From Marinoscillum pacificum (lineage in GTDB: Bacteria > Bacteroidota > Bacteroidia > Cytophagales > Cyclobacteriaceae), in the NCBI RefSeq assembly GCF_024714495.1, contig NZ_JAMZMJ010000005.1, positions 124,001-188,000 of the forward strand: a stretch of 64,000 nucleotides of DNA, read 5' to 3'. Made by a program: the position numbers and the translations under genes. Below the pieces are notes generated by a model. That model was given only the letters and a program-made list of their open reading frames with translations. It made no database searches and was not told the origin of the DNA. Below are positions 3,119-17,631 of this stretch, one piece after another (the first letter of the stretch is position 1; every line of letters starts with the position of its first letter).

Positions 3119-3970
3119 TTATTCAACGCAGTTGTAATGTTTGTAAGATTTGGTATTCTCATCCTCACAGATGTAGGACACTCCATCTCCATAAAATTCT
3201 AAATAATCAGCATATACTTTGTTGCATTGAGATTCTCCGTAGTGGTTGATAATAACCAACTTACCTTCAGACAAAAACTCTTTTGCTCCTGTGGTGTCCC
3301 ACCAGTTTTTATCATCCGAATACGATTCATAAAGGACACCTTCAAACTGACTAACACCTTCGGTCATATTCTTGGCCATACATTTCATCCCTTTGCTGTG
3401 CACATAGTCGCATAGTGTATTACTATAAGCGATCCCCTCCTCTACGGTGACATTGAAACCATAGGCACTTCGATAATCATCATCAAACACCCAATCCATA
3501 TTGTCAAACTCTACCCAATCACACCCAATTTCAGCTAACCAATCAACTCGCTTTTTTAGCACATCTACAATCCCAGTAGTAGTTTCATTGACAAAGTATT
3601 CACCTTCCCAATCACCCCATTGCTTAGTTACAAGAAATGGTTTCAGTTCATTAAAATCATCACGCCAATTTTCTCCTGCACCAATACTAATATAGGCTCC
3701 AACTTCGTTGCCCTGTGCCTGTATGCGAGCAATATCCTCTTCACTCACATTCTCGTAAGGATCGATCAGCACATAACCTGATTTAGCTTCTGAAAGTATC
3801 AAGGAAATTGGATCAGGATCATAGTTTTCCTGATAGGCGTGATTAAATACACATACAGCACCAACTCCTCCTATCGGTGCTATTTCTAAATCTGGTTCTG
3901 ACGGTTCATCTCCCCCACAAGAGATCATTGCAATGGATAATAAAAACAATGTATATAGGTTTTTCAACAT
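3119..3970 (-). CDS. GH114-like endo-alpha-1,4-polygalactosaminidase family lipoprotein
   Basis: 283 residues. The N-terminus is a lipoprotein signal (LFLLSIAMISCGG, Cys about 18). The rest resembles the GH114 TIM barrel: YVLIDPYENVSEEDIARI, then VGAYISIGAGENWRDD, then GCDWVEFDNMDW, where Asp and Glu lie at barrel strand ends as in the family. Family members cleave alpha-1,4-linked galactosamine polymers; whether this copy is active is not shown. It lies three bases downstream of the TlpA-like gene, so both are probably in one transcript. The locus is not near other glycan genes, so the substrate cannot be inferred from context. Confidence 0.75.
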   Translation of the reverse strand: MLKNLYTLFLLSIAMISCGGDEPSEPDLEIAPIGGVGAVCVFNHAYQENYDPDPISLILSEAKSGYVLIDPYENVSEEDIARIQAQGNEVGAYISIGAGENWRDDFNELKPFLVTKQWGDWEGEYFVNETTTGIVDVLKKRVDWLAEIGCDWVEFDNMDWVFDDDYRSAYGFNVTVEEGIAYSNTLCDYVHSKGMKCMAKNMTEGVSQFEGVLYESYSDDKNWWDTTGAKEFLSEGKLVIINHYGESQCNKVYADYLEFYGDGVSYICEDENTKSYKHYNCVE

Positions 3971-3973
3971 TGA

Positions 3974-5350
3974 TTAAACTGGATTCAGTAGTGCTTCTAT
4001 ATCCTTTGCGATGTTTCCCGAAGGTCTTTGTGCTGTAGCATCCACTATATAACCCTCCTGATCTATTAATACAAATCGTGGAATACCTTTTATCAAATAG
4101 TCTTTCATTATTTGTGCGTCCCAAGCACCAGGAGCAAAAACGTGTACTCCTCCAAGCTTTTTAGCTACAACCATTTTCTCCCATGGTTCCTTTGTACTAT
4201 CAATACTCACAGCTAAAAAAGTCACATTTTGATCTTTAAAACGTTCTTGTAACTTCTCCATGGCAGGATGCTCACCAATACAAGGCCCACACCACGTAGC
4301 CCAAACGTCAATGTACACTACACTACCTCTAAAATCCTCAATTGATAGCGTATCTCCATCTATACTCTCATAAGCAAAATCTGGTGCTGGCTTACCTTTA
4401 GCCAGCTTATTCCAAGATGCTACCAATTCGCTTATCTCAGACAACTTTTCAGTATCAGGATTCCAGGATTTCCATTTTTCGATAAGTTCTGATCTAAAAT
4501 CTTCCGACAAATAGGCATATGATTGAATTATAACTTCCTGGATAAGCTCAATTTTTAAAGGTTTCAGCGAAACAACTGAGTCAACAGCTTGCGAATAACC
4601 TTCGTAATATGAAATTGAATTATCACTTTGTCTAATTTCCGAGGAGACATACCTAACCAACCCTCTTACATACCGCTTGAAGGATTTATTTTCAAGTTTC
4701 GATGAATCACCAATATTCAGCTCTGTGATAAACGAGTAAAACCCTTCACTGACATTGAAATCCTCCATTGGAATCTGAAGATAATATTCGTGTGACCCTT
4801 CATAATCCAACCGGTCAGTATAAGTATCCCAGTACAAATTTTCCTTTGTTTCTTCTACGAATTCCTTATCCAATAAATCTTTCAAATAGCTTATTTTCAA
4901 ATTATTGATAGAATCCTGAGTTCTGATAAAATCATCTTCTTCCAGAATCATCAGATCTTGAAAGGACAACAAGCTATCATTCAACAAAGTCATGGAAGCT
5001 AGATAATTATTAACATCAGCAGCATCACCTTGGAAAACCAGCGTTTCATCAAATAAATCAGTATCTAAAGTAAAAGAGATCTCATCACCTGGATGAGCAT
5101 ATAAATACCCGATTTCATCTCCATGTTTGAATCTGATTCTTCCTGCCTTAGTCAAATCAATTTTAGAGGTAAAAGCACCAAGTTCATTGAGTGTATCTAC
5201 TACCTGAAGTTCTCCATGTGTAAATGTTATGGTCTCTCCTTTCGGATTTGTGATTGTTCCAGAAATGGAAACCATCTTTTGCTCTTCTACTTTATCAGCA
5301 CAAGAAATGATAAAAAATATGGAAACAATCAAAATGGCTAAGTTTTTCAT
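3974..5350 (-). CDS. TlpA/ResA-like thiol-disulfide oxidoreductase lipoprotein with N-terminal DUF4369-like domain
   Basis: 458 residues. A lipoprotein signal (VSIFFIISCADK) is followed by a beta-rich domain of the DUF4369 type (ISGTITNPKGETITF, GDEISFTLDTD), a long helical middle (about 125-310) and a C-terminal thioredoxin-fold domain (about 320-458) with the redox motif WATWCGPC and a cis-Pro loop near KGIPRFVL. It would reduce disulfides in the periplasm or at the outer membrane. This domain order is typical of Bacteroidota, where substrates are mostly unknown. It is the first gene of a probable two-gene operon with the GH114-like lipoprotein. Confidence 0.88.
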   Translation of the reverse strand: MKNLAILIVSIFFIISCADKVEEQKMVSISGTITNPKGETITFTHGELQVVDTLNELGAFTSKIDLTKAGRIRFKHGDEIGYLYAHPGDEISFTLDTDLFDETLVFQGDAADVNNYLASMTLLNDSLLSFQDLMILEEDDFIRTQDSINNLKISYLKDLLDKEFVEETKENLYWDTYTDRLDYEGSHEYYLQIPMEDFNVSEGFYSFITELNIGDSSKLENKSFKRYVRGLVRYVSSEIRQSDNSISYYEGYSQAVDSVVSLKPLKIELIQEVIIQSYAYLSEDFRSELIEKWKSWNPDTEKLSEISELVASWNKLAKGKPAPDFAYESIDGDTLSIEDFRGSVVYIDVWATWCGPCIGEHPAMEKLQERFKDQNVTFLAVSIDSTKEPWEKMVVAKKLGGVHVFAPGAWDAQIMKDYLIKGIPRFVLIDQEGYIVDATAQRPSGNIAKDIEALLNPV

Positions 5351-5466
5351 GAGTGTGGTTTTACAGTTAATTACCTAAACTAAAATTTAATTAGACAATT
5401 AACCAGTTAATAGCCATATTATTATCAAATTGAACGTTATTAGCCACTTACATTATCAGCAACAAA

Positions 5467-6003
5467 ATGAATCTTGAACTATTGAAATTTCCCATTGGAC
5501 CATTCAATAAACCATCAGAATTCAGCGAAACCGATATCTTGGAATGGATTCGTGTAATTGAAACATTCCCTAATGAACTAGAAAGCTTATGCTCAGGACT
5601 TGATATTGAAGCATTAAACTGGGTCTATAGACCAGATGGATGGTCTATTAAGCAAGTAATTCATCACTGCGGAGATAGCCATATGAATAGCTTGATCCGC
5701 TTTAAGCTGGCACTTACAGAAGAACAACCAACTATACGCCCCTATCACGAGGATCTATGGGCAAAGTTGGAAGACAGTCAAGACGATGATATCTCCTATT
5801 CGCTGAGTCTATTGAAAGGGCTCCATTACCGATGGGTAAAGCTCTTGAAATCACTAACTCCTGATCAACTAGCGAGAACCTTTGTTCACCCTGAACATGG
5901 AGAGACATTTACCTTAGTAGAAACTATTGCCAACTATGCCTGGCACTGCAATCACCACAAAGCTCACATTGAGCAAGCTATTCAATACAAAGGCAGTTTT
6001 TAA
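5467..6003 (+). CDS. DinB/YfiT-family putative metal-dependent enzyme
   Basis: 178 residues forming a predicted four-helix bundle. The motifs fit the YfiT/BstA branch of the DinB superfamily: [16 protein letters not shown] gives the first metal-binding His, and [16 protein letters not shown] gives the other two. Other members are thiol transferases that use bacillithiol or similar thiols, or uncharacterised hydrolases. The 3' end overlaps the convergent receptor gene by 4 bp. The substrate cannot be read from the sequence. Confidence 0.85.
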
Positions 6004-9000
6004 TCTTTCTTAAGCGTAAACTGATTTACCTTTTCCTTTAGGTTTTCAACAATATCGGATACTTCTCTGGTCTTGTTGGTATACTCTGACATTCCTGTGC
6101 TCAATTCTGAAGAAGAACTTGCTATTTCTTCTGTACCAGATGCGGTCTGTTCGGATATGACCACTACGCTTTCCATCAACTCTACAACTTTACCAACATC
6201 TGCAGTCTGTTGCCTGGTTGCCCCTACTATACGCTCAGAAAGTCTTAATGTTTGCGAATAGCTAGCTGCGAGTTCTTCAAAAGATACAGATGCGTGCTGC
6301 GAGGCTTCCACACCACCTTCTACGTTGGTGCTCATTTCACCAATTAATGCTGCTGTTGTAGATATCGCATACTGAACCTCACTTATCATCTCTTCGATTT
6401 CTTTAGTGGAGCTCCCTGAATCCTCAGCTAGCTTTCTTATTTGCTCTGCAACAACTGAGAACCCTCTTCCGGACTCACCAGCCTTTGCAGCCTCGATTGC
6501 TGCATTCAATGCTAACAAGTTCGTTTGACCAGCGATTTCCTTTATAATATTCAACACTCTGGATATTTCTTCAGATCTATTGGAAAGAATATTGATAGCT
6601 TTAGTCGTATCACCGCTAATCGACATTATTCGCTTCATAGTATCATCCACCTTATCAATCAGGTCCTTACCAACTGTGCTTTGATCAACGCCTCTCTCTG
6701 CTGCTGCATTAATAGACTCTGCCTGGTCTCCTACCTCTGTGGAGAACCTTAAGATACCTTCTAATAAGCTAGAAGCCTCGTCGATTCTTTGCACCTGACT
6801 CTGGGCACCTCTGCTCATCTCAGCAATTGATGCAGCAATCTCTTTGGTGCTGACATTCATTTCCTCACTGGTAACTTGCATTTCATCAGAGGATGATTTG
6901 ATGGAATCTGTCTGGTCAATAATATCATCCAGTAATCCTGACAAATTTTCAAGTGCGACGTTGAGATTATCGGTAATCTTTTTCACATCACCTTTTGTTT
7001 CACCTGCATACCGAATACTAAGATCACTTTCAGCCATGGAATTAATGACCTTGTTGATCGCTGTAAATGGTGTGAGAATGGAGTCAAACAATTTGTTAAT
7101 TGATTCTCCCAAGTCTCGCCATTCACCTTCTTTTGATTCCAAATCAATTCTGGCACTAAAGTTCCCAGACTCTACGGCTTCTCTAATGACATAATTGGTA
7201 TCCTCAATTGCACCCTTGAGACTCTCCTGCTGAGCTTGAAGACTTCTGTTTCTCTCCATCACCTGGGACGTTGCCTCGTCTACCTTTTTCTGAAGCTCCC
7301 ACTTCTGATGCTTAATTTGCTTTTGTCTCCAAATGGTCACTACTACAATAGATCCCATTACCACGATAAATAGAATCGTTCTGAACCACCAGGTAGCCCA
7401 CCATGGCGGACGGACTGTTAGCGTCAGAATTTTTTCCTGACTAGACCAAACACCATCACTATTCGTTCCTTGAATATGAAGTAAATAGGTATCTGGATCC
7501 AGATTAGTATATCTAGCCTGACGATCTTCTGCAGAGGTATACACCCAGCCTTCATTAAACCCTTCTAGCTTGTATCTATATTTATTTGACAGTGGAGAAG
7601 TAAAGTCTAAAGCTGCAAATTCTATTGACAAAACATTCTGATCATGATCCAATGTCAATTCCTGCAAATCCACCAGGGATTTAGTAATCCACTTAGATCC
7701 ATCCTTATTTGTGTATTCTTTAATTGACTTGTCAAATAAACGGATATCCGTAATCTCGATTTTCGGATGATAACTGCTTAATATCACCTCATCGGGATGG
7801 AAATAATTGAGCCCTTTTATACCTCCAAAATACATCTCACCAGTACTTGTAGTTACTGACGAAGTGTAATTAAATTCTGTCCCCTGAAGTCCATCGGCTA
7901 CCGTAAAATTGATAATATCCTCTGTTGCTGGATTATATTTACTTAAACCTTTGTTGGTACTTATCCAGAGATTTCCCTTTCCATCCTCCTGAATTCCATT
8001 GATTACTGGATTCGCCAATAATTTTGTAACATTAGACTGACGAATAACTTGAGTATTTAACTCCATTATACTCATTCCATCAGCTGTTCCAATCCACAAA
8101 TTACCGTAAGAATCCTCATGAAGTGCTCTAATATTGTTATTTGGAATCGTAGTTGAATCTCCTGCTACATTTCGAAAAACGGTAAATTTGCCTGTACTCC
8201 TATCCAGAAGATTCAATCCACCATCTTCTGTTCCAACCCAAAAATTCCTTTTGCTATCCTCAAATAGCGTGATAATAAGGTTACTGCTTAAAGTGCCCTC
8301 TTCGCCTCCTTGCATATAGTGGGTAAAACCATCAATAGCTGGATTATACCTGGCCAATCCACCACCTAACTCCCCCAACCAAATTACTCCTTCACTGTCT
8401 TCCAGAATGGCCCAAACATTTTTGCTATTCACTGAATATGGATTGTCTGCTTCTGGCAAATAGCTTTTAAACCTGCCCGTTTGTCTATCCAACTTACTAA
8501 CTCCACCTGAGTATGTTCCAACCCATAAATATCCTTCACGGTCTTCTTCAAGAGAAATTGCTACATTACTGCTAATAGAATATGGATTGTTTTCTGAATG
8601 TTGATAATGTACAAATCGATTGGTTTTAGGATCCAGCCTATCCAATCCACCACCGTCTGTTCCAATCCAAACATACCCGTCTTTGGTTTCGTCTATGGCA
8701 ATAACCGAATTGAAACTGATAGTATTCTGTACTCCTGGTTCTTCCTCAAATAATTTAAACTTCTTTCTAAACTTACTGTAGATATTCACACCCCCTCGGA
8801 AGGTACTAATCCATACTACACCCGAATCATCTTGTTTAATCTCATAAACAGCATTACTCGTTAGGCTTTCGTCATCAATGACATTTGAAGTTAATCTGGA
8901 AAAGTGTTTGGTATTAGGGTGGTATATATCAATTCCGTTTCCATCTGTTCCGATAAAAATTTCACCCGTTTCATCTTCATAGAAACAGGTCACAATATTC

Positions 9001-9800
9001 ATCGACAAACCATTATCTGTTGTGAAATATTCAAATTTGTTCTGGCTTATCTGATATTTAATAGCCCCTTTCCCATCAGTTCCTATCCACAAATTTCCCT
9101 TCGAGTCTTTTAACAGAGGCTTTCGGTTGATCTCAGTTACTCTATGAGAACTCTTGTAAGGAATAAGTTCGAATCGTCTTTCTTTATAATAGAACTTAAC
9201 AATCCCCTGTATATGCAGTCCAATCCAATAAATACCTGGCGACTCCTCCACAATATCAAACACTGTATTTGATGGGATACTACTCTCCTTTTCTGGATCA
9301 TTAGTCAGTATTTCAAATTGCTGTTTCTCAGAATCAAAAATAGCCATACCACCTCCCTGGGTTGCGATGAGTAAATTATTATCTGGAGTAACAACTATTT
9401 TGCGGGCCTGAACGTGGGGAATTGGACCTTCGAAATTGGATTCATTTACTCTGGTAAAACGCTCTGTTTCCCAATCAAAAATGCTTAATCCACTTGTTCT
9501 TGTCCCGATCCAAATTCTTCCATCTTTATCTTCGGCCAGAGCAGTTATAACATTTCCACTTATGCTATTTGGATCAGCTGCATCCGCTTTATAAACCGTA
9601 AGTTTATATCCATCATATCTATTAAGACCATCAACTGTACCAATCCAAACAAACCCTTTAGAATCCTTAAGAGTGCAATTAACGGTTCCTGTAGACAAAC
9701 CCTCATCTGGGGTTAGATGTGTGAATTTCCAACTTTCCTGTCCAGTGGCATACAAACTCGCCCACATCAACGTAAAAAATGCGAAAAGTCTGAATATCAT
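6000..9800 (-). CDS. Two-component-type propeller sensor fused to a chemoreceptor (MCP) signalling domain
   Basis: 1266 residues. A signal peptide (1-21) is followed by about a dozen reg_prop repeats (motifs such as [28 protein letters not shown]) forming two beta-propellers, a Y_Y_Y domain near 700-790, one membrane segment near 803-825, a coiled coil, HAMP-like helices at about 870-960 and a methyl-accepting signalling domain whose hairpin tip ([20 protein letters not shown]) is at about 1090-1110. Normally this extracellular part feeds a histidine kinase or a HTH module; here it ends in an MCP module that would normally engage CheA/CheW. No che gene is in the window. Alternatively it controls another kinase. 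The ligand is probably a glycan or its breakdown product by analogy with hybrid sensors, but that is inference. Confidence 0.93.
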
Positions 9801-9940
9801 TGTTTTTTGGTTTAAATGGTCGGGTTCAATTTACTATAATATCTTACTAATAATATAATGATTATGACAGACCTATTCAAAGTGATGATGAATCAGCAGT
9901 TAAAGGGAATGAAACCAAAACCTACTTTGTTGAAATAAAC

Positions 9941-9965
9941 AAAAAAAGGCGCTCAACTGAGCGCC
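9941..9965 (-). terminator. Rho-independent terminator of metG
   Basis: On the minus strand an 8-bp perfect stem (GGCGCTCA / TGAGCGCC, 2-base loop) is followed by seven T (A run 9941-9947 on the plus strand). It lies 35 bp past the metG stop. Confidence 0.88.
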
Positions 9966-9999
9966 TCCATTTATTATTCTTTCAATTTAACACAAACCA

Positions 10000-12057
10000 T
10001 CAACTGATTGTTGCCCCATTATCTGCCTCACTATTTGGAGTAACAGCTTTCAATGACCCATCGGCGTTTTCTGCAAAAAGTAACATTCCTTGCGATTCAA
10101 TTCCCATTATTTTTCTAGGTGCAAGATTGGCCAAAACAGTTACTTTCTTTCCAATCATTTCCTCTGGAGTAAAGTGCTTGGCAATTCCACTAACTATCGT
10201 TCTTTGATCCAATCCTGTATCTACAGTAAACTTGAGTAGTTTGTTTGACTTCTCTACTTTCTCCGCAGTTTTAATCTCTCCTACTCTTAGGTCCATTTTC
10301 ATGAAATCATCAAAAGTCATCTCCTCTTTTGCAGGTGTTACTTTTGACGCTGAAGCCTCAGCTTCATTTGCTTTCTTCGTATCCATCAATTTTTGTACTT
10401 GTTCTTCCACTACTTTATCCTCTATCTTTTCAAACAATAATACTGGCTCATCTATTTTCTGCCCTTCGTTCAACAAATCAATTGAACCTGCATCGCTCCA
10501 CTTGGTATTTTCCTGATTCAACATACCTCTTAGCTTCTCAGATGTAAACGGCAAGAAAGGTTCAGACAATATGGTAAGACTACCAGCAATCTGCAATGCT
10601 AGATTCATGATGGTAGCAACTCTTGTTTCGTCTGTTTTAATCAACTTCCATGGTTCAGTGTCAGCGAGGTATTTGTTACCTACTCTGGCAAGATCCATCA
10701 GGTGATTAAGTGCTTCTCTGAATCTAAATTGTTCTAATGAAGACTCAACCTTGTCTCTGAATGTTTTTATTTCATCAATTACCTCTTGATCTCTGCCATC
10801 TAATGCACCTCTTACTGGGATTTTTCCATCAAAGTATTTGTGAGTAAGCACCACTGCTCGGTTGACAAAGTTTCCGAAAATGGCAACTAATTCGCTGTTG
10901 TTTCTTGACTGGAAGTCTTTCCAGGTAAAATCATTATCTTTTGTTTCTGGTGCATTTGCTGTCAACACATATCTCAAAACATCCTGTTTTTCAGGAAACT
11001 CTTCTAGATATTCGTGTAGCCAAACCGCCCAATTTCTTGAAGTTGATATCTTATTGGATTCCAGGTTCAAAAATTCATTTGCCGGCACATTATCAGGCAA
11101 AATGTAATCTCCATCAGCTTTAAGCAATGCAGGGAATATCACACAGTGAAATACGATATTGTCCTTACCTATAAAATGAACTAGACGAGTATCCTCTTTT
11201 TTCCAATAATCTTCCCAATTCTTGCCCTTATCCGCAGCCCAGTCTTTTGTGGCAGAGATATAACCAATTGGAGCATCAAACCATACATAAAGCACTTTAC
11301 CTTCAGCGCCTTCCACAGGCACTGGAATACCCCAATCCAAGTCACGAGTCATTGGTCTTGGTCTTAACCCATTGTCCAACCAGCTCTTACACTGGCCAGC
11401 CACATTCGATTTCCATTCTTTGTGATCTTCAAGAATCCATTGACGCAACCAATCTTCATATTCGTTCAAAGGAAAATACCAATGTTTGGTTTCTTTCATT
11501 ATTGGTGATTCTCCGCTAAGCATTGATTTAGGGTTGATCAATTCCGCTGGGCTCAAAGTGGACCCGCAGCTCTCACACTGATCGCCATAGGCTTCTGGAA
11601 AACTACAAGTTGGACAAGTCCCTTTGATATATCGATCTGCTAAAAATTGCTTTTCCTTTTGATCATAGAATTGTTCTGAAGAATGCTCTTCAAACTTTCC
11701 ATTCTCATACAACTTCTTAAAATAATCTGAGGCAGTCTTATGGTGGGTTTCAGAACTGGTCCTTGAGTAAATATCAAAGCTGATTCCAAACTGCTCAAAT
11801 GAGTTTTTTATTTGATTATGATATTTGTCTACAACCTGCTGAGGAGTAACCCCTTCTTTTCTTGCTCTTAACTCTATTGCTACTCCATGTTCGTCAGAAC
11901 CACATATAAAAGCAACATCTTTCCCCTGCTGTCTCAGAAATCTCGCATATATATCTGCGGGCACATACACTCCAGCCAGGTGACCTATGTGAACAGGACC
12001 ATTGGCATAAGGAAGTGCAGCTGTTAATGTGAATCTATTGTAATTTTTATTAGACAT
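10000..12057 (-). CDS. metG: Methionyl-tRNA synthetase
   Basis: About 685 residues. Charges tRNA-Met with methionine in the cytoplasm. The class I HIGH element is [14 protein letters not shown], a four-Cys zinc knuckle is [17 protein letters not shown], and the KMSKS loop is KISTSRNW, a variant I know from other Bacteroidota enzymes. A C-terminal EMAP/Trbp111-like tRNA-binding domain (about 575-685, [20 protein letters not shown]) is present, as in dimeric MetG. The frame can start at TTG 12081, but ATG 12057 ([11 protein letters not shown]) is preferred: it is preceded by GAGAG and removes an unusual eight-residue leader. Monocistronic with its own terminator. Confidence 0.97.
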
Positions 12058-12244: not shown

Positions 12245-14101
12245 ATGAAGAAGTTGCTAATAGGAGCGCTCGGGCTCGTGCTGATGAATACATCTTTTTC
12301 TCAGGAAAAATATCAGGTAAACATTGATCTAGCTGCTACAGCTGATGACAAGGTACCTGTAGAGGTGTATATACCCCAGTCAGATAGTGAATTTGTAGAG
12401 TACCACATGGCTAAAGTAGTACCAGGGACTTACAGTATTTCAGATTTTGGTCGATTTGTTTCTGAGTTCAAAGCATACGATAGTGCTGGCAATGAACTGA
12501 GCACGGAAAACATCTCTACTAATAAGTGGAAAATAGCTAATTCCGGTAAGCTTGCGAAAATTTCATACCTGGTAGATGATACCTGGGATGAGTTTGAAGG
12601 GTATGGTGACAACATTATCTTCGAACCAGGCGGAACCAATATTAATAAAGAAGAAAACGCATTCGTATTAAACACTTTTGGTTTCATTGGATATATCGAT
12701 GGACAGAAGTTCGTGCCATATGAAGTGGCAATTAAACACAGCGAAAATACGTATGGCGCTACTGCGCTTAAAAAAGAAGCAATCAGCTCGACAGAAGACG
12801 TATTTTATGCGGATGACTTCAATTATTTAGCAGACGGTCCAATCATGTACTCTGTGCCTGATACGGTGACAAGAAAAATTGCAAACGCTGAGATTATTGT
12901 GTCAGTGGTATCTCCGAACAAAATGCTTTCTGCTAAGGATGTAATGGATAACATCTATGACTTGATGGTTGCACAGAGCAACTATTTAGGTGGTGAGCTA
13001 CCTGTTGATCGATATGCCTACCTGATCTACCTCAATGATGAATCAACTCTTTCTGGATCAATGGGAGCATTAGAGCATTCTTACTCCTCTGTGTATTCTC
13101 TTCCTGAGGCTGGAGCAGATAGAATTGGTCAAACTGTAAGAGATGTAGCAGCACATGAATTCTTCCACATTGTTACACCGTTAAACATACATTCTGAGGA
13201 AATTGGCAAATTTAACTACATAGAGCCTGAGATGTCAAAACACCTATGGCTTTATGAGGGAGTAACTGAATACAGCTCCATGCATGTACAGGTAAAATAC
13301 AACTTGTATGGTCCCGACAAATTCATGTCTGAGATTCAGGATAAACTTAGAGTAGCAGAGAGATTCCCTTCTGTTTCATTCACTGAAATGAGTGAACGCA
13401 TCCTGGAGCCAGATTTTGAGCGGATGTATTCCAATGTGTATTATAAAGGAGCATTGATTGGTATGTGCGTTGATCTTTATCTAATTAAATACTCTAATGG
13501 AGAAAAGGATCTTCAGTGGTTAATGAGAGAATTAGCGAAGAAATATGGCAAAGAAATATCCTTTCAGGATGACGAGCTTTTCGATGTTATCGAAGAATTG
13601 ACTTATCCTGAAGTAAGAGCATTTTTAGATACTTATGTAGCAGGAAATGAGCCGCTACCAATCGCTGAAGTATTGGGTTGGGCAGGAATTAACTACACAG
13701 AAGAAAAGACCATAAAACAAACGTCTAGCTTCAGAAGCGGAATAGGCATTACCTTAAATGAAGATAGAGAAATTATGGTTGAAGAAGTGGATCCAGAAAG
13801 TGCATTTGCCACTGCTCTTGGTTACCAAACAGGTGATGTCATTACAGAAATCAACGGAATGGAATTCAATCTGGGTACCGCTCAAGAAGTAATTGAGGCT
13901 TACCAGGAAGAAGTGAAGGTTGGTGACAAGGTGAAGATTGTGGTGAAGAGAGAAACTAAAAAAGGTAAAATCAAAGAAAAGACTTTAAAAGCCAAAGCTC
14001 TAGAAGTCGATACCACTGTAAAACACTTCCTTGAACTGGACAAAGACCCTACAGAAGATCAATACCGCGTATTGCAATCCTGGATAGTAGCAGGAAAGTA
14101 A
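12245..14101 (+). CDS. M61-family (glycyl aminopeptidase-like) metallopeptidase with PDZ domain
   Basis: 618 residues. Signal peptide MKKLLIGALGLVLMNTSFSQ, then the M61 N-terminal beta domain, then the catalytic thermolysin-like domain with zinc motif HEFFHIV (HExxH) and the third ligand in WLYEGVTEY, and a PDZ domain at about 500-585 (ALGYQTGDVITEINGME). Family members release N-terminal Gly or Ala from peptides or act as periplasmic proteases. Exported, probably periplasmic. The gene is monocistronic and followed by a strong terminator. Confidence 0.92.
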   Translation: MKKLLIGALGLVLMNTSFSQEKYQVNIDLAATADDKVPVEVYIPQSDSEFVEYHMAKVVPGTYSISDFGRFVSEFKAYDSAGNELSTENISTNKWKIANSGKLAKISYLVDDTWDEFEGYGDNIIFEPGGTNINKEENAFVLNTFGFIGYIDGQKFVPYEVAIKHSENTYGATALKKEAISSTEDVFYADDFNYLADGPIMYSVPDTVTRKIANAEIIVSVVSPNKMLSAKDVMDNIYDLMVAQSNYLGGELPVDRYAYLIYLNDESTLSGSMGALEHSYSSVYSLPEAGADRIGQTVRDVAAHEFFHIVTPLNIHSEEIGKFNYIEPEMSKHLWLYEGVTEYSSMHVQVKYNLYGPDKFMSEIQDKLRVAERFPSVSFTEMSERILEPDFERMYSNVYYKGALIGMCVDLYLIKYSNGEKDLQWLMRELAKKYGKEISFQDDELFDVIEELTYPEVRAFLDTYVAGNEPLPIAEVLGWAGINYTEEKTIKQTSSFRSGIGITLNEDREIMVEEVDPESAFATALGYQTGDVITEINGMEFNLGTAQEVIEAYQEEVKVGDKVKIVVKRETKKGKIKEKTLKAKALEVDTTVKHFLELDKDPTEDQYRVLQSWIVAGK

Positions 14102-14127
14102 GGTATTGTAGAGATAAAGTTAAAAAA

Positions 14128-14159
14128 GCCACCTGAAACACAGGTGGCTTTTATTTTTT
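14128..14159 (+). terminator. Rho-independent terminator of the M61 peptidase gene
   Basis: Perfect 8-bp stem GCCACCTG / CAGGTGGC with a 5-base loop, then TTTTATTTTTT. It begins 27 bp after the stop codon. Confidence 0.9.
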
Positions 14160-14383
14160 GTACTGGTTAGAAGTAGTTAGGCTTCTTAATACAAAACAGT
14201 TTTAGCTAAACGACCATGGCTGGGTCAGTTATTAGTTAGTCATTCTGGCTAGTCAATCATTATGATTTACCAAACGCTTGATTCGAAATTAGGTCGTCTA
14301 ACTATCAAATGATAGCAATTGGTTATTTATCGTCCCAAGTGGTCATATATCAGGACTAACAGCCAATTAACTACTCAAGTAGA

Positions 14384-15115
14384 CTATAACTGACCAAGCT
14401 CTTTCAACAATTGATCTTTCTTATTACGAGCAACATCCACAATTTGACCTGATTTTAATATCAATTGACCACCTCTACCCTTCTTATATACTTCAACCTG
14501 ATCGAGGTTAACAAGAAAGGATTTATGAACTCTACAAAAACGATAACCATCAAGCGTACGTTCGAAATCCGCCAATGGTTTGGTCGCAATAATCTTCCGC
14601 CCTTCGTCCAAGTGAAAAATAGAATAATTCCTATCTGCTTCTACAAAACCTATTGTAGAAGGCTCTATCATATGTATTTCTTCTGCTGATGAGATCGGAA
14701 TTCTTTCACTTTGATTTTTATTCAAAAGGTCTTTCAAACTGGCAACACTGACCATATTCTGACTATCTCTTACTTTACGTATTGCGTTGAGTAAATCTAG
14801 TTTGTCGACCGGTTTGACCAGATAATCAATGGCAGATGCCTTTAAAGCCTGGAGAGCATACTTCTCATGACCAGTTGTGAAAATAATCTTAGGAAGGGGA
14901 ATTTGATTTCTTTGAATAAGGTCGAATCCAGAATATTGAGGCATGTCTACATCTAAAAAAACCAGATCAGGTCTCAACTTCAAAATCACCTCTTCGGCTT
15001 CAGGAACATTGCGTGCCTCTCCTATCACATGCACGTCTGTACTATTCTGGGCTATTAATAGCCTTAAGTTTTCCCTTGCTGATAACTCATCATCTATAAT
15101 GACTGCATTTATCAT
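14384..15115 (-). CDS. LytTR-family response regulator
   Basis: 243 residues. The receiver domain (1-120) has the acidic pair IIDDE, the phosphoacceptor Asp in VFLDVDMP, the switch Thr in IIFTTGH and the Lys in YLVKP. The LytTR DNA-binding domain (about 145-240) is recognised by VEADRNYSIFHL, RFCRVHKSFLVNL and GQIVDVARNKK. It would bind direct repeats upstream of target genes when phosphorylated by a LytS-type kinase. No such kinase is adjacent; the truncated kinase at the left edge is one candidate. It is isolated, with large non-coding gaps on both sides. Confidence 0.95.
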   Translation of the reverse strand: MINAVIIDDELSARENLRLLIAQNSTDVHVIGEARNVPEAEEVILKLRPDLVFLDVDMPQYSGFDLIQRNQIPLPKIIFTTGHEKYALQALKASAIDYLVKPVDKLDLLNAIRKVRDSQNMVSVASLKDLLNKNQSERIPISSAEEIHMIEPSTIGFVEADRNYSIFHLDEGRKIIATKPLADFERTLDGYRFCRVHKSFLVNLDQVEVYKKGRGGQLILKSGQIVDVARNKKDQLLKELGQL

Positions 15116-15855
15116 GTGCTATACGGTCTAATGTCTTCAATTATGTAAGCTAGTAGGTCACACTTAATATATCAGTTGATAGTAAAAACCGAAACGCCCC
15201 ATATCGACACAGCTGATGATTTAAACAAGCGTGTTAATTACTTTTCAACGATCACTACTTCAAAAAATTGCTGGTAATGGAGGATAAACAATAATCATTC
15301 CACTAATCGAAAACTTGAGAAGTTTGTAAGGCATCATGCCGACAACAGCAACTAAACTATAATACCGTTATGATCAACTAACTAATCTCCTTCTTACTTC
15401 GCAGGTTCCACACTCTTAATCAAAGTAGTTAATCTCGCATGACTATCTCAAATCTATCATTTACTAAGTTAATTCCCCCATTTAGAAGGAGTTTCTTTAG
15501 CTCATTGTAAAAATGAGAATTGATTTTATAGACTGTCGATTAATATCCCAGAGCTTCACATTTTCACAATCAGTGATAATTGTCCTTACCAACTAATCAT
15601 CAACATCACTCCCAGAGACTTGGAGGAATTGCACCAACGTAAAAAATCAAGTTTGTCGTTCTTAATCCATTCAAACTATCTCTATACTGTTCACAACATC
15701 TACCCGCTGTAAAGGTTAATTATTGAAGCTGATACCGACTCACCTTTGAGTCGATAGCACCATGCAGCATATAGTTTAATCTATATCAGATTATATTGGC
15801 TTATTTTTAGGTTTGACTATGAGCCATATATATATTCGAGTATCAGTTACTACTT
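15116..15855. other. 740-bp intergenic stretch without a convincing gene
   Basis: The stretch separates the divergent LytTR regulator and hybrid kinase genes. All frames are broken by stops and I see no conserved protein. Small hairpins are visible (CTCATT-n5-AATGAG at 15501-15517). A TAGGTTTG box at 15808-15815 matches the Bacteroidota -7 element and is placed 41 bp before the kinase start, but I find no well-spaced TTG -33 element. Confidence 0.6.
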
Positions 15856-17631
15856 ATGAAAAAACTGTTAGCCAGCTTAAGTCAGATTATCGAGGCATAT
15901 GACACTCCTTATTACAAGATTCATCAAATGGCACTTCCATTTTTTGCAATTATTGGAGCAATTTGCAACCTGTTCTTTTATATTTTTCTGAAGTTTTTCA
16001 CTGATTATGAAGAGAATATTTGGCTTAGAATCATCGTCATAATTCTTTTTGGAAGTCTTTTAATTTTACCAAGAGATAGAAAACTAACCAAAAAAGAAGC
16101 CTGGTACATGGAGTTTGTATGGCTCGCTACGCTTCCTTTGTTTTTTTGTATTCTGCTGTTCCTCAATGATCTGAATACCTATTGGACTATTTCGCTCTTA
16201 CTTGCTGTAACATTTTATGCGTTGTTAGCCGATCCCATCAAGGGGTTGATTTTATATCCGTTAATATTCATTGGTGTCTTTAGCATATTCGTATTCTACT
16301 TAGGCTTTTCCATTGAAAACATGCAGTCGGTATACGAAAGCTTTTTCGTCACCAATCTGATGAATATAGTTATTGGAGGCTTACATGCTGTCACCAGGTC
16401 TGTTTTTCTGAAATTTGAGCTCACTAATGATATTATTGAAGAGAATAAAGTAGAACTCATCAAGCGACAACAAATTGCTGAAAAAGCGAGTAAAGCGAAA
16501 ACGGATTTTCTGGCGAACATGAGTCATGAAATTAGAACCCCTCTCAATTCAATCATAGGTTTTAGTAGAGCGCTGGAAGAACAAAGTGAAGAACATCACT
16601 TTCCTGAAGAGTCAAATACTCTAATCGGATATATTAGAAACGCTGGAGAGCATCTAACAGAGCTCATCAACAATGTATTGGATCTGTCAAAGATAGAGGC
16701 TGGAAAACTGGAACTTTTCAAGCAACCTTTTAGGTTGAGACGCTTAATTGAAAATGTGTACCATCTTCATTTTCAACAAGCACAAAATAAAGGTCTTAAT
16801 TTAGAATTTTCAATTGACCCTAAACTTCCAGAATTCATCTTATCAGACAGGATTAAGCTCAATCAAATTTTAACAAATCTGGTAGCCAATGCTATTAAAT
16901 TTAGTCATTCAGGAACCATTTCTATTCAGGTCAACCATCAAGAAAACAAATTACTAATAGCTGTATCGGATGAAGGTATAGGCATTTCACCCGATCGACA
17001 AGCGGCAATATTCAACTCTTTCGAACAAGCGGACAATACAACTACCAGACGTTTTGGAGGAAGTGGTCTAGGTTTAGCGATTAGTAAGAAAATGGCCGAA
17101 TTATTGGGAGGAAATATCACTTTAATCAGTCAACCAGGAAAAGGGTCTACGTTCTTTGTTCTTTTACCTTTCGATAAGGCCTACAACGACTATGCAGACA
17201 GTAAAGAGACCAATCAAATTATTAAATCTATTCCTACCAATAAGCAAATTCTGATCGTTGAAGACGATCTTATGAATCAACTGGTTATTAAAGGAATGCT
17301 CGCAAAGACTAAAGTTCCTCTTAAAATTGTTTCTAACGGCAAAGAAGCAATAGATTATTTGAAAAATGGAATGGAAACCAATTCGTTACCTGATTTGGTA
17401 TTTATGGATCTACACATGCCGATTATGGATGGAGTGGAAGCGCTTGGACATATTCGTAATGAAATGAATCTTGGAAGCTTACCAGTTGTAGCTCTTACTG
17501 CAGATGCTCTAGCAGAGCAAAAAGCCAATGGACTTAGAATGGGTTTTTCTGAGTATATCACCAAGCCAATTGTACAAGAAGAATTGTTCCTTGTGCTGAA
17601 TCAATTCTTAAACCAACCTACCAATATTTAG
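15856..17631 (+). CDS. Hybrid sensor histidine kinase with C-terminal receiver
   Basis: 591 residues. Six hydrophobic segments (about 20-195) form a membrane sensor module with no recognised ligand-binding domain. A coiled linker leads to HisKA (FLANMSHEIRTPLNSIIGFS, phospho-His near 226), HATPase_c with N box ILTNLVANAIKFS and G boxes SDEGIGIS and GGSGLGLAIS, and a receiver at about 470-585 with QILIVEDD, phosphoacceptor Asp in VFMDLHMPIMDG, and ITKPI. There is no HPt domain, so phosphate must pass to a separate HPt protein or the receiver acts as a brake. It is monocistronic and convergent with the TPR kinase. Confidence 0.93.
   Translation: MKKLLASLSQIIEAYDTPYYKIHQMALPFFAIIGAICNLFFYIFLKFFTDYEENIWLRIIVIILFGSLLILPRDRKLTKKEAWYMEFVWLATLPLFFCILLFLNDLNTYWTISLLLAVTFYALLADPIKGLILYPLIFIGVFSIFVFYLGFSIENMQSVYESFFVTNLMNIVIGGLHAVTRSVFLKFELTNDIIEENKVELIKRQQIAEKASKAKTDFLANMSHEIRTPLNSIIGFSRALEEQSEEHHFPEESNTLIGYIRNAGEHLTELINNVLDLSKIEAGKLELFKQPFRLRRLIENVYHLHFQQAQNKGLNLEFSIDPKLPEFILSDRIKLNQILTNLVANAIKFSHSGTISIQVNHQENKLLIAVSDEGIGISPDRQAAIFNSFEQADNTTTRRFGGSGLGLAISKKMAELLGGNITLISQPGKGSTFFVLLPFDKAYNDYADSKETNQIIKSIPTNKQILIVEDDLMNQLVIKGMLAKTKVPLKIVSNGKEAIDYLKNGMETNSLPDLVFMDLHMPIMDGVEALGHIRNEMNLGSLPVVALTADALAEQKANGLRMGFSEYITKPIVQEELFLVLNQFLNQPTNI

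Follow-up and report, generated by a model that had tools for sequence, protein, structure and literature searches.

Sensors built of Reg_prop repeats and a Y_Y_Y domain are found in hybrid two-component systems (HTCS) of Bacteroidota, and a gene of Marinoscillum pacificum raises the question of what such a sensor might do when it is joined to the signaling part of a chemoreceptor. The gene lies on the reverse strand at positions 6000-9800 of a stretch of 64,000 nucleotides (positions 124,001 to 188,000 of contig NZ_JAMZMJ010000005.1, assembly GCF_024714495.1), here called the window, which belongs to our contig C28 (L, G and C numbers are our handles for loci, genomes and contigs). A first-pass annotation, made from the letters of the window, had described a propeller/Y_Y_Y sensor ending in a chemoreceptor domain and had suggested that it steers gliding toward polysaccharides or drives a CheA pathway unrelated to motility. 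We think it probable, with some reserve, that the product is a transmembrane chemoreceptor with a ligand-binding part of the HTCS propeller/Y_Y_Y type, working on glycan cues through the array of a conserved che cluster represented in this organism on contig C7.

Architecture of the propeller chemoreceptor

The gene is one uninterrupted open reading frame (ORF) from ATG to stop, of 1266 amino acids, and the possibility that the methyl-accepting chemotaxis protein (MCP) part is a separate gene joined by a frameshift can be set aside, both halves being in a single unbroken frame. Pfam recognizes Reg_prop (E 2.8e-58), Y_Y_Y (1.7e-13), HAMP_2 (3.3e-10) and MCPsignal (PF00015, residues 1064-1209, 2.1e-33), which confirms the layout first proposed. 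The outer half is indeed of the HTCS type: piecewise, from close to the N-terminus as far as residue 803, it can be aligned with the periplasmic part of a hybrid two-component sensor of Bacteroides (4a2l, E 7e-129). The inner half has the HAMP domain and the full hairpin that had been expected; 302 residues align with the Thermotoga maritima receptor 2ch7 with zero gaps (E 8e-26) and share its conserved tip, although 2ch7 comes from a different phylum and is a cytoplasmic piece only. We take 2ch7 to be of the hairpin length class 44H, and the tip (residues 1092-1114) to be the zone in which known receptors contact CheA and CheW.

As had been noticed from the letters, kinase and helix-turn-helix (HTH) domains are missing: at E 0.001 Pfam gives no histidine-kinase, receiver or HTH family, HTH_AraC included, and therefore we do not class the protein as an HTCS. 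It resembles these systems in its periplasmic half and in the helix that follows the membrane, but carries HAMP_2 and an MCP hairpin in place of their kinase, receiver and DNA-binding parts, so that control of CheA would replace the control of transcription. Compared with the HAMP_2 chemoreceptors of the same genome, chiefly those of the C7 cluster, it has the same HAMP_2 domain, but where the C7-cluster receptors have dCache and PAS sensors it has ca. 800 residues of propeller and Y_Y_Y. Its hairpin aligns without the large deletions seen in the receptor C3_97, and the same is true of 14 of the 15 own receptors aligned (out of 16); the sixteenth, C3_100, lacks the tip motif, was left out of that alignment and pairs with C3_97 in a quick MCP-half tree. 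The hydropathy scan found one span above threshold (802-827), an N-terminal span falling under it, and a methylation-site consensus matched once, near residue 1224. Judged from its sequence, the product is one polypeptide with its parts in the correct order, and its MCP hairpin is complete and can be aligned with the hairpins of the organism's other HAMP_2 receptors.

Distribution of the chimeras

The genome (6.40 Mb) contains 17 MCPsignal match pieces that make up 16 receptors, two pieces falling in one frame. The propeller architecture is seen in three of the 16, namely in the window gene, L113:9232-12999 and L116:7161-10964. For other genomes we used a junction profile, A1, covering residues 725-1040 and built from six rows. 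Among the matches listed in 390 genomes of the family (Cyclobacteriaceae in GTDB; NCBI taxonomy puts Marinoscillum within Reichenbachiellaceae, Cytophagales), full-length ones scored 363-587 bits, receptor-only ones up to 230 and kinase-sensor-only ones up to 164. The domain order of the window protein, for which the first-pass annotation had proposed such a search, recurs in at least 26 genes from 12 of the 390 genomes and 6 of the 84 genera, the count being a lower bound as at most five candidates were scored per genome (G224 has five). Two wider samples, 390 genomes of the order (129 genera, E 1e-55) and 395 of the phylum (171 genera, E 1e-50), partly overlapping with the family sample, gave full-length matches in the organism's own genome only, at cut-offs that remote fusions would escape.

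All 26 genes were read (L235 is L033 again), and in 25 of them a single frame holds Y_Y_Y together with an MCP half of full score. L033 departs from this, its frame being split within the MCP half, and in L241 and L245 an N-terminal piece of the propeller lies in a second frame. A frameshift or assembly artefact is thus ruled out for the window gene, which is intact, has two paralogues with the same domains and shares its one-frame structure with nearly all of these genes. The relatives include a metagenome-assembled genome (MAG) of Marinoscillum (72% and, as a paralogue, 39% identity), a MAG labelled Rickettsiales (77%) and one of Cyclobacteriaceae (32%). The contig labelled Rickettsiales (L031, PBTY01000012.1) shares the gene block of the window at 60-89% identity for most genes, hence its label looks wrong. 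Two contigs of one genome, L249 and L250, carry near-identical chimera proteins (99-100%) with similar neighbors, probably an assembly duplicate.

That the fusion is decayed, a sensor gene with a captured MCP end and no working partner, is highly improbable in our estimation. Three of the 26 homologues are frame-split (L033, L241 and L245), for which errors in the sequencing of draft genomes may be to blame, but the window gene and its two paralogues are intact, its hairpin is 89-91% identical to that of the orthologue L031 against 70-75% for the propellers, 20 of the 23 positions of the tip are invariant in six aligned rows, and CheA is present in all 12 carrier genomes.

Outside Bacteroidota, a protein of 1173 amino acids encoded on plasmid pTS2 of Treponema saccharophilum (WP_002704105.1) also joins Reg_prop (7.2e-46), Y_Y_Y (1.6e-11) and MCPsignal (2.4e-25) and is 25% identical to the window protein across most of its length. 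It is annotated as a propeller protein only. However, it has no HAMP or HAMP_2 match, its MCP part is gapped and different, and it belongs to another phylum, so it looks like a fusion independent of the Bacteroidota ones. The pTS2 gene table, from a record that is incomplete according to PLSDB, names no second propeller protein. The fusion gene (L252:11902-15423, + strand) adjoins a Cache-GGDEF-EAL gene and another receptor.

Seam, origins and exchange of sensors

Among the matches listed, receptor-only matches to A1 mostly start at about residue 852 (A1 position 128). Most of the kinase-only ones listed stop at about residues 858-874 (A1 134-150), a few of them at A1 185-204. In a gap-free comparison with L121, a sensor kinase of the same genome, 14 of 40 residues agree from residue 824 on, falling to 3 of the next 40. 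The same kind of comparison with a C7 receptor gave no guidance, as the register slips and none of the steps of ten exceeded 3; on the receptor side, therefore, the seam is placed by the A1 profile matches. These data would place the seam within the helix that links the transmembrane segment and the core.

In a careful tree of MCP halves (57 rows), a single clade (100/100) unites 20 of the 23 chimeras included, and sister to it (92/77) stand receptors from genomes G059, G035, G106, G141, G165 and G215, HAMP_2 receptors encoded within ca. 15 kb of C7-type cheA genes. A second clade (100/100) holds L243, L246 and L247, all of genus g68, and the support for its position in the tree is weak (27/73). 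L033 (frame-split), L245 and L249 (tip motif unmatched) had been dropped from this tree; the quick tree also holds 23 chimeras, L235 was omitted from the trees, and the identity table omits L033, L235 and L245. A single origin was rejected, as one clade of all chimeras appeared in 0 percent of 200 bootstrap trees and had p 0.008 in the approximately unbiased (AU) test. The trees thus indicate that the architecture arose at least twice among these genomes. In the tree of propeller halves (115 rows) the chimeras are intermixed with kinase sensors; its deep branches are weak, the tree came with long-branch warnings, and it gives no count of fusions.

The two halves have had different histories in some lineages. 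L032 and the window gene are 24-34% identical in their propellers and 57-68% from HAMP onward; L032 and L240 are 44-53% identical in their propellers and 45-51% from HAMP onward. By these figures, and by propeller and MCP trees that concur, L032 shows a swap of its sensor, and sensor halves are, on this evidence, exchanged within the chimera family. A mobile origin was also considered and found no backing: the junction profile has no relative in viral contigs, and no phage record reached 80% coverage.

A likely partner among the che systems

The first-pass annotation had made its reading depend on the presence of CheA and CheW, and both are found in the genome, together with CheR and CheB. There are three che clusters, two on contig C3 and one on C7, and all seven CheW-domain matches of the genome lie on these two contigs; the remark that no che genes are nearby therefore holds for CheW and CheA, with the window on C28. 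The three CheA proteins have HATPase and CheW domains, and two of them a Pfam Hpt match. We dropped the idea that the C7 CheA has no Hpt part, because the frame of 525 amino acids in which the match was lacking extends upstream and there contains an Hpt-like motif, HTLKG.

The C7 cluster contains genes for two receptors, cheW, siaC, parA, a long CheW protein, cheB, cheA, cheR, cheY genes and cheX, as well as a NIT-HAMP-HATPase protein and a SpoIIE phosphatase. Much of this gene order is common to the clusters of eight other carriers (three of them, L224, L227 and L229, end at contig ends; G224, G068 and G175 are not included). A CheW match is present in all 12 carriers and in 112 of all 390 family genomes (P 2e-7, uncorrected for kinship); at genus level, all 6 carrier genera fall among the 37 of 84 with CheW (P 0.006). 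C7-type CheA is found at full length in all 12 carriers, the own genome included, at 53-100% identity, and at 1e-60 in 54 of the 64 genomes searched out of the 112 with CheW, in some at part length. In four carriers (G161, G088, G059 and G060) the CheW-domain matches number just 3 per genome, as many as in the cluster itself (cheW, long cheW and cheA), so a second array system is not visible in them. Since most MCP halves of the chimeras branch beside receptors near C7-type cheA genes, the C7-type CheA is the likely partner, and co-occurrence and phylogeny together give good support to the view that the window receptor works in the array of this conserved cluster.

The parA gene of the cluster (L028:12879-16700, + strand) encodes an ATPase of the ParA type, and the long CheW protein, the second CheW protein there, is rich in lysine over an N-terminal stretch. 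Perhaps the array is positioned by a ParA partner.

A CheA pathway that does not act on motility, the second suggestion of the first-pass annotation, may apply instead, because this cluster encodes SiaC and a SpoIIE-type phosphatase. The receptor would then still feed the C7-type CheA but set a partner-switching state (SiaC, SpoIIE phosphatase and HATPase kinase) for glycan-responsive adhesion or biofilm, which we regard as unlikely. Its basis is the siaC gene (PF09345, 5.9e-36), the SpoIIE phosphatase (9.1e-13) and the NIT-HAMP-HATPase protein of the own cluster, the SpoIIE-like genes and NIT-HATPase homologues found in 4 and 6, respectively, of the eight other clusters within the stretch read, and the link of SiaABC to biofilm in Pseudomonas, as given in the part of the source consulted (PMC7647112). 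On the other hand, siaC homologues occur in only three of the eight (L224 and L230, 84-92%; L231, 33%) and are thus not constant, although the contig of L229 ends before the place of siaC, and with its cheY genes, CheX, CheR and CheB the own cluster has a full adaptation set.

Gene neighborhoods and the nature of the ligand

The proposed link to glycans held in part. Several homologues lie within carbohydrate loci, but pectin finds no support at the window locus, where the nearest glycan enzyme is a GH114-family gene (window:3119-3970, - strand) three genes away, which also accompanies the orthologous chimera in L030 and L031. Between the window gene and the GH114-family gene lie a DinB-family gene and a thioredoxin-like gene; the other side has a MetG-like gene (named by similarity to an L242 protein that Pfam names) and an M61 peptidase. 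L030 and L031 are surrounded by much of this block.

The carbohydrate setting is clear for L032 and L248. L032 is flanked by a KDPG aldolase and a Chondroitinase_B-family lyase, all three on one strand, the lyase having a lipoprotein-like start that we read by eye ca. 35-45 bases past the chimera stop. Its vicinity has a second Chondroitinase_B-family lyase, a propeller frame of the kinase type and a cupin match that stays under its cut-off, and uronate oligomers would be candidate ligands for receptors of the L032 type. Within two genes of L248 are GH88, GH78, GH39 and a 3-keto-disaccharide hydrolase; GH20 stands beside L240, GH2 beside L238, and a sulfatase two genes off L236. L245, at one gene on each side, has a mannitol-dehydrogenase-family gene and a major facilitator superfamily (MFS) transporter. 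In all, a glycan-active enzyme was found at two genes each side in five of ten neighborhoods (L032, L236, L238, L240 and L248), a count made with no random-locus control and from which we claim no enrichment; the remaining chimera loci, mostly syntenic with those scanned, are outside it. The copies among lyases, glycosidases and sulfatases fit glycan sensing without proving it. The context gives moderate support to a periplasmic glycan breakdown product, or a binding protein carrying it, as the probable ligand.

It is also conceivable, if rather less likely, that the propeller senses another large periplasmic ligand or the state of the cell envelope, with the link to glycan loci incidental. 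Half of the neighborhoods at two genes each side have no glycan-active enzyme, Y_Y_Y matches are common (28 over cut-off in the own genome), and the neighbors of the window gene up to two genes away, DinB-family, thioredoxin-like, MetG-like and M61 peptidase, are all of other kinds. Against this, the sensor half is close to solved HTCS sensors such as 4a2l, the lyase and aldolase genes flank L032 on one strand, and four HTCS periplasmic parts bound glycan fragments by calorimetry, according to the portion of the study consulted (PMC3243724).

Two further receptors of this genome stand near genes of glycan uptake. In L114 a Cache-domain receptor (8598-10808, - strand) adjoins SusC-like and SusD-like genes (3746-8424, - strand), a second link of this kind. 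In L112 (765-9687, - strand) a HAMP_2 receptor of 588 amino acids has no recognized sensor domain. Downstream of it is a run of genes that includes SusC-like and SusD-like ones, and the two intervening genes resemble, by eye only, a sigma factor and an anti-sigma factor.

Output and proposed mechanism

Gliding as the output, the first suggestion of the first-pass annotation, found partial backing. FlhA had no match in the own genome (the control search was positive in 4 of 14 genomes), GldK was above its cut-off and a GldJ-like frame was below. In the 12 carriers no pilT-family match was over cut-off, four having matches at 173-179 bits. As FlhA was not found, no pilT-family match passed its cut-off in the carriers and Gld proteins are present, gliding is favored as the movement output, and the context weakly suggests control of gliding driven by the type IX secretion system (T9SS).

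If so, binding of a ligand would shift the Y_Y_Y domain and the transmembrane/linker helix, HAMP would relay this shift, the altered activity of CheA would change the level of CheY~P, and T9SS-driven gliding would come under control of the receptor. A broader proposal, to which we give tentative and somewhat less than even credence, is that of a class of polysaccharide chemoreceptors, in which sensors of glycan regulators have been moved, and repeatedly exchanged, onto one chemotaxis chassis, and through which surface-gliding Cytophagales would direct their T9SS-driven movement by the very oligosaccharide cues that activate their digestive loci.

Several observations weigh against the proposal of a glycan receptor that steers gliding through the C7-type array. 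The window gene is distant from any che cluster, and C7-type CheA occurs at full length also in genomes in which no chimera was found, e.g., G007 and G133 of the same genus, so that it would be needed company for the receptor and no mark of the carriers. Both trees of MCP halves came with long-branch warnings. On the output side, the GldJ-like frames seen in all 12 carriers are below the family cut-off, that of the own genome is on another contig than GldK, the searches for GldK and FlhA covered the own genome only, and the SiaC, SpoIIE and NIT-HATPase proteins of the cluster could point to an output other than motility. As to the ligand, the GH114-family gene of the window is only the third gene away; no glycan-degrading enzyme was found at two genes each side of L237, L239 (which has a glycosyltransferase only), L241, L242 and L243, nor any glycan enzyme at one gene each side of L233, L234 and L249; and the two genes upstream of L113 have no Pfam family match.

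Features of the window

The coordinates of the gene and its parts are collected in Table 1. No Rfam family reached its gathering score within the window. At its beginning (227-1273, + strand) is the end of the last of four consecutive Y_Y_Y frames (C28:115790-124520), which finishes in a His_kinase of LytS type. Near the paralogous chimera of L116 there is a protein of 1169 amino acids with WD40-type repeats and a caspase domain (13661-17170, + strand), which is kept near chimeras in L249, L250 and L251.

Table 1. Parts of the propeller chemoreceptor gene, in window positions
Feature	Residues	Position	Strand	Basis
Whole gene, 1266 codons: propeller / Y_Y_Y / transmembrane helix / HAMP_2 / MCP		6000..9800	-	ORF and Pfam
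Signal-peptide-like N-terminus	1-20	9741..9800	-	Read by eye; under the hydrophobicity threshold
Reg_prop beta-propeller region (approximate limits)	~25-670	7791..9728	-	Pfam and 4a2l alignment
Y_Y_Y domain	733-796	7413..7604	-	Pfam
Transmembrane helix	802-827	7320..7397	-	Hydropathy scan
Putative fusion zone, similarity shifting from sensor-kinase-type linker helix to receptor-type helix	~852-870	7191..7247	-	Junction-profile matches and gap-free comparison
HAMP_2 domain	891-950	6951..7130	-	Pfam
MCP coiled-coil hairpin, gap-free against 2ch7	958-1259	6024..6929	-	Pfam and 2ch7 alignment
Hairpin tip	1092-1114	6459..6527	-	20/23 positions invariant in six aligned rows

Implications

The propeller-MCP architecture as such is already deposited, in the Treponema plasmid, and a paper describing it was not found within the literature searched. 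Among the papers listed, in a search that had most subscription journals outside its coverage, no title or opening of an abstract names a Reg_prop/Y_Y_Y chemoreceptor, and the parts consulted of PMC1183210 and PMC13070061 have nothing on such receptors. For PorX a CheY-like role is only hypothesized in the consulted part of a 2024 study (PMC10951265). If the broader proposal is true, the propeller chemoreceptors would be among the first sensory inputs to Bacteroidota gliding. The family supplies a named set of receptors, one candidate CheA cluster and, through the enzymes in their neighborhoods, candidate ligands, so that a direct test is possible. The fusion suggests that signals from food polymers steer behavior rather than gene expression in these bacteria, and it would be an example of glycan sensors being transferable between the control of genes and that of behavior.

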